Source of the DNA: Syntrophomonadaceae bacterium
Lineage (GTDB): Bacteria > Bacillota > Syntrophomonadia > Syntrophomonadales > Syntrophomonadaceae
Direction of reading: 5' to 3'
NCBI GenBank assembly: GCA_012520725.1
Contig: JAAYNQ010000093.1
Coordinates: forward strand, 1-64,000
Length of the DNA stretch: 64,000 nucleotides
Shown: positions 54,387 to 60,052 of the stretch, one piece after another
Numbering within the stretch: the stretch's first letter is position 1
Layout of the letters: each line of letters opens with the position of its first letter
Notes under the pieces: generated by a model
What the model was told of the DNA's origin: nothing
Database searches by the model: none
Seen by the model: only the letters and a program-made list of their open reading frames with translations
Made by a program: the position numbers and the translations under genes

Positions 54387-54548
54387 TTATTTTTCCTGTT
54401 TGCCCTCCTGTCTGGCCAGATATTCACGGATTATCATTCTGACCAGAGCACTTCTGGAAATCTGGTTATCCAGGGCTAAACGTTTTATTTCATTTACCTG
54501 ACTCTTGGTAAGGTAAAAAGTTGCATGTTCAAACTTATCCGTAGCCAT
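54387..54548 (-). CDS. Small ribbon-helix-helix (CopG/Arc-type) protein
   Basis: 53 aa, too short for common gene-calling cut-offs. ATG 54548 has a strong GGGAGGGGGTTAAA site. The sequence 'HATFYLTKSQVNEIKRLAL' followed by 'ISRSALVRMIIREYLARQE' is a single ribbon-helix-helix unit: a beta strand for base contacts and two helices with the 'SRSALVRMIIREYL' dimer core. Such proteins are dimeric repressors or antitoxins. No toxin-like partner lies next to it; it sits between the patatin-like gene and spoIIR. Its target is unknown, perhaps its own or a neighbouring promoter. Confidence 0.8.
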   Translation of the reverse strand: MATDKFEHATFYLTKSQVNEIKRLALDNQISRSALVRMIIREYLARQEGKQEK

Positions 54549-54646
54549 TTTAACCCCCTCCCTGCCGTATATACTGCTACTTCGGCTGATAGTGCTTCCT
54601 AATGGATATTATATGTAGTTTTCTAAGGGTCGGTTACTTAATTGTT

Positions 54647-55507
54647 CTATTTTAATCCTCTTTTTAACTCTGGGATAAGCTTTTGCATGGCCAGTCTACC
54701 TTGTTTAATAATAGCCCGGGCTTGATCAATACCATCCAGGGGAACTTCTTCCACCCCGGGGAAAAGCAAGATATCGGCAAAGATCTTTTCTTCCGTGTCA
54801 GAGGTTTCATAGGTTAAAATATTGATGGTTCGGGATATAATTTGAGGTAATCCTGCCACCGGCTTATTATACTCTCTTTGGCCTAAATTAACCGCTAGAA
54901 TATATTCGGCTCCCATTAATTTCTGAATCCAAACCGGAACCATGGTTTTTACCCCTCCGTCAACCATCTGCCGGCCATGGAAAAAGCGGGGTACAAAGGT
55001 AGCTGGAATAGAACTGCTGCAACGTACCGCTTCGCTGAGCAGGGCATTGTATATTATTATGCACCGGTGACTGCCGACTATATTGACGCTGTTGGTAAAA
55101 ACCACCTCCAAGCCGCTATTAATATCACAGGCTATTATACTTAAAGGAATCTTTATCTGACTCAGGCTCCTGCCGTCACTTAACTGGTATATCAGCCTTT
55201 CCAATTTGCATCCTTTAATAATACCGTTTAGCTGAGCTTCTACTCCTGGAACCAAAAGAGAAAGCAAATATTTAATAAATCCACTGATATTATAGTCCAA
55301 GTAATCCGATGGTTTTAATCGCAAGGCTATGGCTTCCAATTCATAAGCTGATATGCCGCAGGCATACAAACCTCCAACAATACTTCCTATACTGGTACCC
55401 GAAATCATGCTGACTTTAATATGATGATCTTCCAAGACCTGCAGAACCCCAATATGGGCTAAACCACGTAGTCCTCCGCCCCCCAAAGCTAGGCCCAGGC
55501 TTTTCAT
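54647..55507 (-). CDS. Patatin-like phospholipase (RssA family)
   Basis: 286 aa from ATG 55507 (GGAGGG six bases upstream; ATG 55513 abuts the site). Ser-Asp dyad lipid acyl hydrolase. The oxyanion loop is 'LALGGGGLRGLAHIGVLQVLED', the nucleophile elbow 'ISGTSIGSIVGGLYA' (Ser about residue 40) and the catalytic Asp in 'MVDGGVKTMVPVW'. 'SEAVRCSSSIPATFVP' is a conserved family segment. It is cytoplasmic or peripheral to the membrane. The gene lies upstream of the ribbon-helix-helix gene; its physiological lipid is unknown. Confidence 0.92.
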   Translation of the reverse strand: MKSLGLALGGGGLRGLAHIGVLQVLEDHHIKVSMISGTSIGSIVGGLYACGISAYELEAIALRLKPSDYLDYNISGFIKYLLSLLVPGVEAQLNGIIKGCKLERLIYQLSDGRSLSQIKIPLSIIACDINSGLEVVFTNSVNIVGSHRCIIIYNALLSEAVRCSSSIPATFVPRFFHGRQMVDGGVKTMVPVWIQKLMGAEYILAVNLGQREYNKPVAGLPQIISRTINILTYETSDTEEKIFADILLFPGVEEVPLDGIDQARAIIKQGRLAMQKLIPELKRGLK

Positions 55508-55526
55508 TCCCATCCCTCCACTGAGC

Positions 55527-55585
55527 TAAAAACAGGCGGATCCTTTGGATATGCCTTTATATATCCTTTAGAAAATCCGCCTGTT
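55527..55585 (-). terminator. Terminator downstream of the 73-aa gene
   Basis: AACAGGCGGAT/ATCCGCCTGTT arms (55531-55541, 55575-55585), with an inner GGATAT/ATATCC pairing, followed on the minus strand by TTTAGC. A second hairpin TTGGAGCA/TGCTCCAA lies at 55596-55614. Confidence 0.7.
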
Positions 55586-55626: not shown

Positions 55627-55848
55627 TCAACGATTACACTTCAGCACCATAAATCTGGAAATATTCTTGATATTCTCACTATTCTGCTGCTTCAACTCAT
55701 TCCAAAAGCGGCTGTATTCACTATGAGTACTTTCTTTCCGGTAGCTGTCTATCTTTTGGTCCAGGCTGCGATGAATAGCCAAAATCTCTTCCAAGTGGTT
55801 TCGCATGGTATTCTTTTCTTGTCTGTTTATTCGTATTTTGCCGGTCAT
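55627..55848 (-). CDS. Small helical protein of unknown function
   Basis: 73 aa (or 59 from the ATG at 55806). It is predicted to be almost all helix and highly charged: 'NHLEEILAIHRSLDQKIDSYRKES' then 'EYSRFWNELKQQNSENIKNISRFMVLKCNR'. No recognised domain. A GGAG and a GAGG lie 10-20 bases before ATG 55848. It follows the cysteine-containing unknown gene after a weak hairpin (55881-55908) and ends in a good terminator, which supports it as a real gene, perhaps in the same late-sporulation unit. Confidence 0.5.
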   Translation of the reverse strand: MTGKIRINRQEKNTMRNHLEEILAIHRSLDQKIDSYRKESTHSEYSRFWNELKQQNSENIKNISRFMVLKCNR

Positions 55849-55921: not shown

Positions 55922-56491
55922 CTACTTGACCTGAAATCCTTCCGGTTCCAGCTCTCCATATACTATTACGTCGTGCATCTTACCTAATTTATCTATAATG
56001 TCTACAAAAACCCTAAGTCCGATACAGGTTCCGCGTACTGGAGAAGTTAAATGGCATGGGTTATGATGATCTTCGCAATTGCCCTTGATATCGAAGTCAA
56101 AGGTCCAATTTCTCAACACAATTTCAGAATCCTCAATTTCTTCTCTGAATTCCTCCACGGTTAAAGGTGGATCAAATTCATCCAGCTCTATAGCTTGATC
56201 ATATTTATCTGTTACCGTTATCAACTGATATTCATTGTTCACTATGACTAAGAGTATCACTTCGAATTCTATAAAGATTCTAACTTTGTTCATACCCAGT
56301 TCTTCATACGCTTGAATAACCTTTACTTTAATATCGTCTACAGTAGATATTTTGCCTCCAACTTGTTCATCAGGTACGCAAAACATGGTATCCAACACTT
56401 TTACTTGTCTCTCAACATATTTGGCCTTTATTACTTTGGCCCATAAGTCTAACATACAACCTTCCGGAAATTCGCATTTAAGTTCAGCCAT
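55922..56491 (-). CDS. Unknown beta-rich protein, possible spore-layer protein
   Basis: 189 aa, acidic, no signal peptide. I cannot assign a family with confidence. Alternating hydrophobic strands ('VKVIQAYEELGMNKVRIFIEFEVILLVIVNNEYQLITVTDKY', 'VLRNWTFDFDIKG', 'IGLRVFVDIIDKLGKMHDVIVYGELEP') recall the SPOCS/DUF3794 domain of spore coat-associated proteins. Cysteines cluster at the N-terminus ('CEFPEGC') and in 'GNCEDHHNPCHL'. A close match to a sigma-K promoter lies upstream (56563-56591), suggesting expression in the late mother cell. GGAGGGGAGAGCAGC precedes ATG 56491. Confidence 0.7.
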   Translation of the reverse strand: MAELKCEFPEGCMLDLWAKVIKAKYVERQVKVLDTMFCVPDEQVGGKISTVDDIKVKVIQAYEELGMNKVRIFIEFEVILLVIVNNEYQLITVTDKYDQAIELDEFDPPLTVEEFREEIEDSEIVLRNWTFDFDIKGNCEDHHNPCHLTSPVRGTCIGLRVFVDIIDKLGKMHDVIVYGELEPEGFQVK

Positions 56492-56562
56492 GCTGCTCTC
56501 CCCTCCTTTTATCTAATCTATATTTTTATTTAGTAGAAATTTGTAAGTTCAAATTCCTAGGA

Positions 56563-56591
56563 TATACTATGAAGCTAGGGTCCATAATGTG
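56563..56591 (-). promoter_or_regulatory. Sigma-K-like promoter of the 189-aa unknown gene
   Basis: Minus strand CACA (56591-56588), 16-base spacer, CATAGTATA (56571-56563), matching mACm-N16-CATANNNTA exactly. The gene starts 71 bases further on. Confidence 0.55.
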
Positions 56592-56641
56592 ATTACTCTA
56601 CTGTTTTTATTCATATAATTTATACTGCTGTCCATCATAAA

Positions 56642-57328
56642 CTATAGCTGCTTCATTACATGAGTACATTCCAAACGTCCATCACAGTATATATGGACCC
56701 CCTTTTGCCGGGCTGATTCACAAAATCCGATGTCTTCTGCTCCGTTTCTTGCCCCATAGCGAACCCCCAGTTCGCTTATTACTTGCCGTTTAATTAAATA
56801 AGCAGCCCCGGTGCAATCAACTCTAAATAATCTGTCCCGGGGAAAATTGCGAATATGCAGGTAATGCCCCCTATCATCTCGATGGAGGACATTATAGCAA
56901 GACTCATCTCCAATCACTGCACCATTACAGACCAGACAGGAGACAATATCGCATTGGTTGTTTATTAAAGCCCTTAAGCTATGAGGAGGTACTAAAATAT
57001 CACTATCCACTGAAAATAGATACTCACAATCACTACGCAGAAACTCCATCAGCAGGAGGTTGCGAAGATAGGCCAGACGCTTAAAACTGTACTGACCCCT
57101 TTGATGAGGCGTATTGCCGCCATTATTTTCTACTAAGTAGACCTGCCCCGGGTACTTATGAGCAAAGTTCCCGAGAATATCCGGAGTACTATCCTCACAA
57201 TCATTAACTATAAAACAGTAGATTATCCTTTCCCGTGGATAATCAAGGGCCTCCAAACTCTGCAAATATGCAGGCAAGATCCAGGCCCGGTTACGAACCG
57301 GACAGCCGATCATTACTTTGCGCTCCAT
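56642..57328 (-). CDS. GT2-like glycosyltransferase
   Basis: 228 aa. A GT-A fold enzyme: 'VMIGCPVRNRAWILPAYLQSLEAL' at the start, the metal-binding DxD as 'YLFSVDSDILVPPHSLRAL' (about residues 100-115), and 'GAAYLIKRQVISELGVRYGARNGAEDIGFCESARQKG' with the acceptor-side Glu/Asp. It resembles the Anp1/GT2-type group. Its ATG lies inside the last codons of the upstream glycosyltransferase (16-base overlap), so the two are translationally coupled. A role in spore-surface glycosylation is inferred from the promoter and the CgeB-like neighbour. Confidence 0.85.
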   Translation of the reverse strand: MERKVMIGCPVRNRAWILPAYLQSLEALDYPRERIIYCFIVNDCEDSTPDILGNFAHKYPGQVYLVENNGGNTPHQRGQYSFKRLAYLRNLLLMEFLRSDCEYLFSVDSDILVPPHSLRALINNQCDIVSCLVCNGAVIGDESCYNVLHRDDRGHYLHIRNFPRDRLFRVDCTGAAYLIKRQVISELGVRYGARNGAEDIGFCESARQKGVHIYCDGRLECTHVMKQL

Positions 57329-58722
57329 CCCAATCCCTTTCTATAATTAACCGCTTTCTTAACCACTAGTCTTTTTAACTGCCCTGAGCCCCGCTTATAT
57401 CCCCAGTTCCCCCAGGATGATTGGTACTTGCTGCCTCGACGCTTGATGGGAAGGCCATATACCGGCCTATTAGGAATTCTCGGCAGATAATCCCAATGAC
57501 TGTATTTATCTTCAGGTATTCCCCGTAGCGGTGAAGCAGCGGCAAGACTTAATCGGCTGGCTACTTTAACCCGGCTACCAGACAGCGCATGGTGGTATAC
57601 AAAACCATTATCAGGCCTACTCAGTCCCTCCCAGTTGCTGTTGGATATGATCTCATCTTCAATCCATACCGGGGTAGGATCTGCTGCCAGTTCCCGGCGC
57701 TCCAATTCCTCTTTAATTATTTCTATCACCGTTTGGGCTCTTTGCATCCAGGAATTCTCCTGGGCTACCTGTTGTCGCTGCTGTTTTTTCTCTGGAGTAT
57801 CCTGATATAAAGCTCGCTCTATATTGCGCAAAAAATCTTCCCGGGTTTCCGAGTATAAAACCAAATCTCCGTGTTTCCTGGCTTCCGGCAAAGCGGTGGC
57901 TACAACCGGCAAACCTACTGCCATGTATTCCCACATTTTGATAGGGTTGACGGATTCCGTCATGCTGGTATTTTTGAAAGGAATGATTCCTACATCAAAG
58001 TTTCTGGCATAAGCGGCCAGTTTTTCATAGGGTTTGAATCCCAGCCAGTGAATATTGGGCCGCTGGGGCACCTGGGAGATGTTATACAGGGGGCCGATTA
58101 CAATCAGATTACAGTGGGGAAAGCTATCGGCTACCGCTGTAATCAAATCCAAATCGCACCAGCTGGCCACTACACCGATATAGCCTATTATAGGTTTTTC
58201 AATACCTGCTATATCACTGTCTGCTTCCTGATAATCCCGATTGTTCTTACCCGAAAAATAATCATAATCGCAGGCATTGGGCAAGAGATATACTCGGGGA
58301 TTTAAGGCTTTTGCCATCTGATACAATTTATCAGATGCAGTAAGTACCAAATCCGCACTGCTAACTGCCCGGTAATAATTGGGCCTCCAGGATTCGAATT
58401 CTTCACTGGGTTCGTCTACACTGTCAAATATCACCAGCTCTGGATTGTATTGTCTCACCATATCGACATGGGCGGCAGAAGTATAATATACTATGGGCTT
58501 GGAGTTGCCCAGAAAAGGAGTGGGATCCACCTGATTAAACAGGTAAAAAAATTCATTTAGTTTTCTGATACCGGGTTTGTCTTTAGAGTAAATGCTGCTG
58601 TTATTAAGAAAAAAGGCTGGTATCCCTAATTCAGAAAAACTCCGCATAAGGTGCTGTGGCCGCTGAATTAGATAATGGTATTCAAGGGTGGGTGGATATA
58701 GAATACAATTGATATGAGCCAA
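57313..58722 (-). CDS. GT4-like glycosyltransferase with basic C-terminal extension
   Basis: 469 aa from TTG 58722, with GGGGG eight bases upstream. The N-terminus 'YHYLIQRPQHLMRSFSELG' and 'VIFDSVDEPSEEF', 'LLPNACDYDYF', 'IGYIGVVASWCDLDLI', 'FDVGIIPFKNTSMTESVNPIKMWEYMAVGLPVVATAL' match the GT-B/TuaH-like group also seen at 6197-7348. The catalytic part ends near residue 345. A further ~120 residues, ending in a Lys/Arg/Gly-rich tail ('IKRRGSKYQSSWGNWGYKRG'), are unusual. A sigma-K-like promoter lies 173 bases upstream. Confidence 0.87.
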   Translation of the reverse strand: MAHINCILYPPTLEYHYLIQRPQHLMRSFSELGIPAFFLNNSSIYSKDKPGIRKLNEFFYLFNQVDPTPFLGNSKPIVYYTSAAHVDMVRQYNPELVIFDSVDEPSEEFESWRPNYYRAVSSADLVLTASDKLYQMAKALNPRVYLLPNACDYDYFSGKNNRDYQEADSDIAGIEKPIIGYIGVVASWCDLDLITAVADSFPHCNLIVIGPLYNISQVPQRPNIHWLGFKPYEKLAAYARNFDVGIIPFKNTSMTESVNPIKMWEYMAVGLPVVATALPEARKHGDLVLYSETREDFLRNIERALYQDTPEKKQQRQQVAQENSWMQRAQTVIEIIKEELERRELAADPTPVWIEDEIISNSNWEGLSRPDNGFVYHHALSGSRVKVASRLSLAAASPLRGIPEDKYSHWDYLPRIPNRPVYGLPIKRRGSKYQSSWGNWGYKRGSGQLKRLVVKKAVNYRKGLGWSAK

Positions 58723-58796
58723 ATTTTTACCCCCTGACTGTGGTTTACTGCTGGGGTGATAAGCTACATAATAGACCAGCTGACAAGCTGCTATAG

Positions 58797-58827
58797 TCCT
58801 GTATCAATCGAAAAAGCCCATACAGGA
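58797..58827 (-). other. Hairpin in the leader of the glycosyltransferase pair
   Basis: TCCTGTAT/ATACAGGA (58797-58804, 58820-58827) with a 15-base loop inside the predicted 165-base leader. It could serve as the end of cgeB-like transcripts or as a leader stem. Confidence 0.4.
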
Positions 58828-58894
58828 CCTGCAGTGAGACTGGAAAGGTTTAAGCTCAGCCCCGCAGTCAAGTTGTCAAACTGCGCATTTTATA

Positions 58895-58923
58895 TATGCT
58901 ATGCAGCTACTGACCCGGAGGTG
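58895..58923 (-). promoter_or_regulatory. Sigma-K-like promoter of the glycosyltransferase pair
   Basis: Minus strand CACC (58923-58920), 16-base spacer, CATAGCATA (58903-58895), an exact match to mACm-N16-CATANNNTA. Confidence 0.55.
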
Positions 58924-58962
58924 CATGGAGCTGACTACTTATGGATGCTGAACCAGATAGTG

Positions 58963-59994
58963 CTAGTTATGGACACTTAAGCCCTTCTGGAGTTTTATAA
59001 TCGTGTTGCTCCTGGAGTTGCTGAGTATCACCCGGGGAGAAACCTGATTTCTACGCATAATCTGAGTTAGGCTCTCTTGGATAGCCCGGATACGGACATG
59101 ATAAGTATGTTTACTATATACCTCCTGCTGCCCTTGTTGTGCTATCTTTTTTCTCAATTCAGGATGGGTCAGATAATATTTTATCAAATCCCGGGTTTCT
59201 TCCGGGCTTCGTGACCAAACCAGATGGTAATGGTTCTTAAACAAGCGTTCTATAGACCGGGTCCATTGAGTTAAATAGAAACCTGCACAACCCAGAATCT
59301 CAAAGGTCCTCATGCTCATCATAGTATCTGAATCAGCAATAGAATGTACCCCCAAGACAATAGCTGAGGAAGTACATACTACCGGAAGCAGGTGATTAGG
59401 CAGGTAACCTCCATACTGCTCCGGCGCCAGCTTTAACTCCACCTCTGGCTCCAACCACCATTGGTTGCCATAAACCTTCAGCTTAAAGCCTTCCCCAGCA
59501 GGTTTTAATATATTATTCAGGCCTTGCCGGCGATCTTCATGATAATCATAATAATTACCCACGAAAACCAATTCATGGGCATACCTGGAGTCAGCCGGAG
59601 CGGCATAATGAAATCGAGGGTGACAGGCAAACAGCATCTCTTGAGCTTCTATTCCCCACCTGGCATATTCTGCTATGGACTCTTTGCAGGGAGTTAATAC
59701 CAGAGATGATTTTAAGGCATAGGGGATGGACAGATGATAAGAACTGGGATCTTCGATAGCCCAGTAAACATGGGGAATTTTCCTATCACTCAATAAAGGA
59801 AAAAGTTTCTCCATGCGATTAATTCCGCCGTCATTAAATACCAGATCTGGCTGGAAGGTATCTATAGTCAGACCCAGGGGTTCATCCAGGTCTATATTGA
59901 TGTACTTGACCTGGTACCCCAAATCGGCAAAAGCTGGTCCTATACCACGGGTTATTATGGGAGCGGAGTTAACAAAGAGTATTTTTATCTTCAC
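58963..59994 (-). CDS. CgeB-family spore-surface glycosyltransferase-like protein
   Basis: 343 aa. 'ILFVNSAPIITRGIGPAFADLGYQVKYINID' and 'QPDLVFNDGGINRMEKLFPLL' open the protein. 'PHVYWAIEDPSSYHLSIPYALKSSLVLTPCKESIAEYARWG', 'LVFVGNYYDYHEDRR' and 'SMRTFEILGCAGFYLTQWTRSIERLF' are the segments that define the CgeB group, with a GT-B-like second domain. In B. subtilis the sigma-K-dependent cgeAB genes act in assembly and glycosylation of the outermost spore layer. AAAGGAGCTGGTGAAG precedes ATG 59994, and a near-consensus sigma-K promoter lies just upstream. Glycosyl donor unknown. Confidence 0.82.
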   Translation of the reverse strand: MKIKILFVNSAPIITRGIGPAFADLGYQVKYINIDLDEPLGLTIDTFQPDLVFNDGGINRMEKLFPLLSDRKIPHVYWAIEDPSSYHLSIPYALKSSLVLTPCKESIAEYARWGIEAQEMLFACHPRFHYAAPADSRYAHELVFVGNYYDYHEDRRQGLNNILKPAGEGFKLKVYGNQWWLEPEVELKLAPEQYGGYLPNHLLPVVCTSSAIVLGVHSIADSDTMMSMRTFEILGCAGFYLTQWTRSIERLFKNHYHLVWSRSPEETRDLIKYYLTHPELRKKIAQQGQQEVYSKHTYHVRIRAIQESLTQIMRRNQVSPRVILSNSRSNTIIKLQKGLSVHN

Positions 59995-60023
59995 CAGCTC
60001 CTTTTTAAGCGCTTTTGTTAAAT

Positions 60024-60052
60024 TACCTTATTCAAAATATCACCGGGGTGTT
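60024..60052 (-). promoter_or_regulatory. Sigma-K-like promoter of the CgeB-like gene
   Basis: Minus strand AACA (60052-60049), 16-base spacer, AATAAGGTA (60032-60024). One mismatch (A for C) to mACm-N16-CATANNNTA. It gives a short leader of roughly 20 bases. Confidence 0.45.

Follow-up and report, generated by a model that had tools for sequence, protein, structure and literature searches.

We analyzed a 64,000-nucleotide stretch of DNA (hereafter the window) on contig C207 of a Syntrophomonadaceae genome (2.64 Mb in 212 contigs) and found in it a gene cluster whose transcription units are headed by a precisely spaced promoter motif that is conserved across the order Syntrophomonadales. Sequence comparisons provide good support for assigning this cluster to the late mother-cell (sigma-K) regulon. 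That assignment, taken together with the roles inferred for its 189-amino-acid (aa) protein, glycosyltransferases and ribbon-helix-helix (RHH) protein, is the best explanation of the locus as a whole and a quite likely one. Under it, RNA polymerase bearing SigK would read an 'AC' −35 box and a CATAnnnTA −10 box, exactly 16 bp apart, before four transcription units: a CgeB-like gene; the glycosyltransferase pair GT1–GT2; the 189-aa gene along with a 73-aa open reading frame (ORF); and the RHH gene. These units would be transcribed late in the mother cell, with the cysteine-bearing 189-aa protein as a putative structural component of the outer coat or exosporium, three glycosyltransferases that would make or attach a spore-surface glycan, and an RHH protein that might regulate late mother-cell genes.

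The motif mACm-N16-CATAnnnTA has exactly three exact matches in the window, all on the minus strand (as are all features of the window described here) and within 4.3 kb of each other. They precede the 189-aa gene (56563..56591, CACATTATGGACCCTAGCTTCATAGTATA), the glycosyltransferase pair (58895..58923, CACCTCCGGGTCAGTAGCTGCATAGCATA) and the 53-aa RHH gene (54607..54635). A further site before the CgeB-like gene (60024..60052, AACACCCCGGTGATATTTTGAATAAGGTA) has a single mismatch in the −10 box, AATA for CATA. By chance, 0.61 exact matches are expected in the window, and three were reached in only 1 of 100 shuffles. Matching with one mismatch gave 25 sites against 17 expected, which is uninformative on its own. 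Among the sigma-70 promoters listed, none overlaps the four motif sites. An initial annotation of this DNA had described three adjacent units with the same-spaced motif, two exact and one with a mismatch, and had argued that such spacing is hard to obtain by chance. Both points hold: the three sites are where it placed them, and the shuffles, together with the enrichment of N16 alone across relatives, speak against coincidence. Its island was, however, drawn too small, in that the third exact site, before the RHH gene, was overlooked.

The decisive test is the comparison of upstream regions in related genomes, which the initial annotation had proposed and which makes the case for the motif stronger than it had stated. 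The named relatives of the source are Syntrophomonas, Thermosyntropha and Syntrophothermus, which places it in the Syntrophomonadales. In loci from about 40 relatives in this order, we searched the 350 bp upstream of each gene for exact N16 motifs; as the genomes are related, the resulting counts are not independent. Counted as loci with a match over loci examined, the motif precedes the 189-aa gene (37/38), the RHH gene (28/33), GT1 (13/31) and the CgeB-like gene (10/23), but not the neighboring control genes: KsgA (0/24), Veg (0/30), GT2 (0/35), the 73-aa ORF (0/27), patatin (0/32) and IspE (0/15), with a single instance for SpoIIR (1/18). Shuffled upstream regions gave a mean of 0.01–0.07 matches, and spacings from 11 to 21 other than 16 yielded at most 3 matches, none being comparably enriched. 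Across the loci both boxes are strongly conserved and most of the spacer is variable; thus, with the controls lacking the motif, selection appears to act on the boxes themselves. Each of the order's three families retains the RHH promoter, in the form GTAAC...ACATATA(A/C)T, with single-position departures at some sites. The AATA variant of the CgeB-like −10 box is common to all five members of the window's genus, and other genera have exact sites. The GT1 site is mixed within that genus, being exact in the window and in L091 and altered to varying extents in L092–L094.

The form of the motif points to SigK as its reader. The genome encodes SigK with the segment GISRSYVSR, in which an arginine at the −35-reading position matches 'AC'; SigE has GISQSYISR. 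The sites combine an AC −35 with a CATAnnnTA −10 at fixed spacing, as is expected of sigma-K promoters, the CgeB-like site being one base off. Further, CACC-N16-CATATAATG-type sites lie upstream of dpaA in 19 of 28 genomes of the clade, the source genome among them; expression of this gene depends on sigma-K in both C. difficile and B. subtilis (PMC3789822). Since sigma-K-type signals are kept at exact spacing in dozens of relatives, the genes are probably turned on late in spore formation. The sigK gene itself spans two contig ends (L132, the end of G000:C165, and L133, the start of G000:C59) that share 127 identical bases; this split is probably an assembly break, but may instead reflect an intervening element carried by a fraction of the population.

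The genes found below the motif elsewhere in the genome fit a mother-cell regulon. We looked at the gene context of all 31 N16 sites and of about half of the N15 and N17 sites. Eleven of the 31 N16 sites lie outside ORFs of at least 150 aa and have an ORF of at least 100 aa beginning within 200 bp, as against 0/15 N15 and 2/11 N17 sites among those examined. The products encoded downstream of other N16 sites include SpoVK, YunB, YtaF, YmaF, MurC, a beta-helix protein, a peptidoglycan-binding/LysM protein that is partly SleB-like, and a protein with a BclA C-terminal domain (PF18573); the sites before spoVK, yunB, ytaF and the LysM and BclA-domain genes are intergenic. The gene for the BclA-domain protein, at L145:1560-2132, is below an exact N16 motif, and its product is a candidate component of the exosporium and may serve as a glycan carrier.

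Three proteins of the locus have glycosyltransferase domains. The CgeB-like protein (343 aa; 58963..59994) owes its label to one shared domain, PF13524 (E 4.4e-27), which is also carried by B. subtilis CgeB; no other CgeB-specific domain was matched in the Pfam search. GT1 (469 aa, with a TTG start; 57313..58722) is a family-4-like enzyme with PF13692 and PF00534, and GT2 (228 aa; 56642..57328) is GT-A-like with PF03452 and PF00535. As the two genes overlap and GT2 is without its own motif, they form one unit. By analogy, from their domain types and from precedents in B. subtilis and C. difficile, these glycosyltransferases would decorate the spore surface. It is also possible, though rather doubtful, that the promoters are of the sigma-K type and the enzymes serve other ends, such as the metabolism of cortex or wall precursors or polymers of the mother cell. 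Indeed, murC and also murA (with the motif inside an ORF) lie below the motif in the source genome, which puts wall-precursor enzymes in the same candidate regulon, and the best match of GT1, a partial likeness far below the cut-off, is to the teichuronic-acid enzyme TuaH. However, none of the three proteins matches a peptidoglycan-synthesis family, and the late-sporulation glycosyltransferases known from B. subtilis and C. difficile have as their targets the crust (PMC10502511) and the exosporium protein BclA3 (PMC7157674), respectively.

A less probable alternative, which we hold to be distinctly unlikely, is that reading of the sites falls chiefly to the early mother-cell factor sigma-E, or is shared between it and sigma-K, such that the cluster would be mother-cell-specific and not specifically late. 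Genes with this motif in the source genome include yunB, ytaF and spoVK, which are sigma-E genes in B. subtilis, and thus sigma-E could share the sites. Yet the conserved −35 is AC rather than the ATA-type element that accompanies a CATA-type −10 in sigma-E promoters. Moreover, the upstream regions of spoIVA, which served as the sigma-E reference, have a conserved AATATT-N13-TATACTGT in this clade that is unlike the cluster motif, whereas the dpaA promoter is the same as that motif. Besides this potential sharing, two other points weigh against the assignment to sigma-K: exact sites before GT1 and the CgeB-like gene occur in under half of the loci, and the genome-wide motif density is no more than modestly above control, with 82 matches for spacers N15–17 compared to 55 for the reversed pattern, so that density alone would not convince. 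The initial annotation had accepted that a similar density elsewhere in the genome would tell against it; this objection partly bites for the raw counts, but not for the conservation or the identity of the downstream genes. That the matches are products of chance, conserved only by the shared ancestry of the whole region, is suggested by those counts and the relatedness of the genomes but is highly improbable, with neighboring genes in the same loci lacking the motif, the boxes kept while spacers vary, and only the 16-bp spacing enriched. Thus, of the sigma-K-driven spore-glycan cluster first proposed, the sigma-K part stands on the conservation, the dpaA match, the spoIVA difference and the −35 residue of SigK, and the glycan part is what we infer from the enzymes.

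The 189-aa protein (55922..56491) is a candidate spore-surface structural protein. Its family is present in 52 of 101 relatives, with Cys6 and Cys12 invariant, and has neither a Pfam match nor a sequence match in the PDB. The predicted structure is all-beta, with good confidence except at the ends (predicted local distance difference test score, pLDDT, 85.8), and a fold search with this model returned no significant match. We consider the family to be probably a lineage-specific spore-surface protein. Two other identities were tried and set aside: for SipL/SPOCS (PF12673) there was no Pfam match and hhalign against the SipL alignment gave 0.2%, and for an endospore-appendage subunit, an idea arising from the N-terminal Cys segment and beta domain (cf. 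PMC11952670), there was no family or fold match. By profile comparison, the family has a distant relative in a coiled-coil protein of other genera, whose gene directly follows veg (in L107, L110, L111, L113, L118, L123 and L124) and whose sequence begins with an IWSPVI-type motif; the window's genus lacks it at this position.

Directly below the −10 box of the 189-aa gene, a stem-loop (56534..56559) occupies the predicted 5′ end of the transcript and is seen again in about two thirds of the leaders from relatives; it might serve to stabilize a long-lived late-sporulation mRNA, or as an operator. A genome from the third family encodes, at the position between veg and patatin that the 189-aa gene holds elsewhere, a Cys-rich 219-aa protein (L325:1906-2562), which is unrelated to the 189-aa family, has no Pfam match and has a sigma-K-type motif in front. 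One relative (G035) has a second copy of the GT1–GT2–189-aa gene set (L125:10885-13422), 52–58% identical, in which the 189-aa gene is not preceded by the motif.

The 53-aa RHH protein (54387..54548) matches PF01402 with 27.9 bits against a cut-off of 20.5. Its gene is present in 53 of the 63 genomes of the order. Beyond the order, matches are confined to 3 genomes among the 299 sampled from the phylum; one of these matches is strong, and the genome concerned has no such motif upstream. On account of its promoter, family and conservation, this protein may act as a regulator late in the mother cell. We offer as a tentative and, as a whole, improbable extension that it is a sigma-K-induced, GerE-like regulator acting on the adjoining spore-surface genes and that the 189-aa family represents a novel type of structural component of the spore surface.

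In minus-strand order, the genes of the region are ksgA, veg, the CgeB-like gene, GT1, GT2, the 189-aa gene, the 73-aa ORF, patatin, the RHH gene, spoIIR and ispE, with the ksgA and ispE labels assigned from their sequences. The 73-aa ORF (55627..55848), which is conserved in position and without an upstream motif, probably shares a transcript with the 189-aa gene. It is followed by an inverted repeat and then a T run (55531..55585), a likely terminator ahead of the patatin-like phospholipase gene (54647..55513; PF01734), which belongs to the conserved neighborhood and is without the motif.

We found little on the sporulation of syntrophic fatty-acid oxidizers in the open literature searched. 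The analysis furnishes a footprint-supported sigma-K promoter set for the Syntrophomonadales, a candidate lineage-specific spore-surface family, enzymes that are candidates for spore-glycan synthesis, and a protein that may regulate late mother-cell genes. These predictions can be tested in cultured Syntrophomonas, Thermosyntropha or Syntrophothermus species.

Certain parallels emerge with known systems. The RHH protein is of the CopG type, in contrast to the LuxR-type fold of GerE. It nevertheless resembles B. subtilis GerE, a small DNA-binding protein that acts late in the mother cell (PMC517825), in its small size, DNA-binding family and proposed time of action. The motif shares the AC −35 and CATA-type −10 of the sigma-K promoters of C. 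difficile (PMC3789822) and B. subtilis (PMC517825), and differs from them in the fixed 16-bp spacing and in clade-specific bases beside the boxes. In B. subtilis, CgeB, CgeD, SpsA, SpsB, YfnD-F, YtcC and CotSA are encoded by late-sporulation glycosylation genes tied to the outermost spore layer (PMC10502511); one protein of our locus shares PF13524 with CgeB, whereas the location between veg and spoIIR and the association with a 189-aa protein particular to the lineage and with an RHH gene set the locus apart. In C. difficile, CD3350 and bclA3 belong to the sigma-K regulon (PMC3789822), and the activity of SgtA has been described (PMC7157674). The enzyme families differ there, and the neighbor in our locus is a beta-rich 189-aa protein, not the collagen-like BclA; yet in both the sgtA–bclA3 locus and the cluster described here, a glycosyltransferase gene adjoins the gene of a spore-surface protein, in our case a candidate one.
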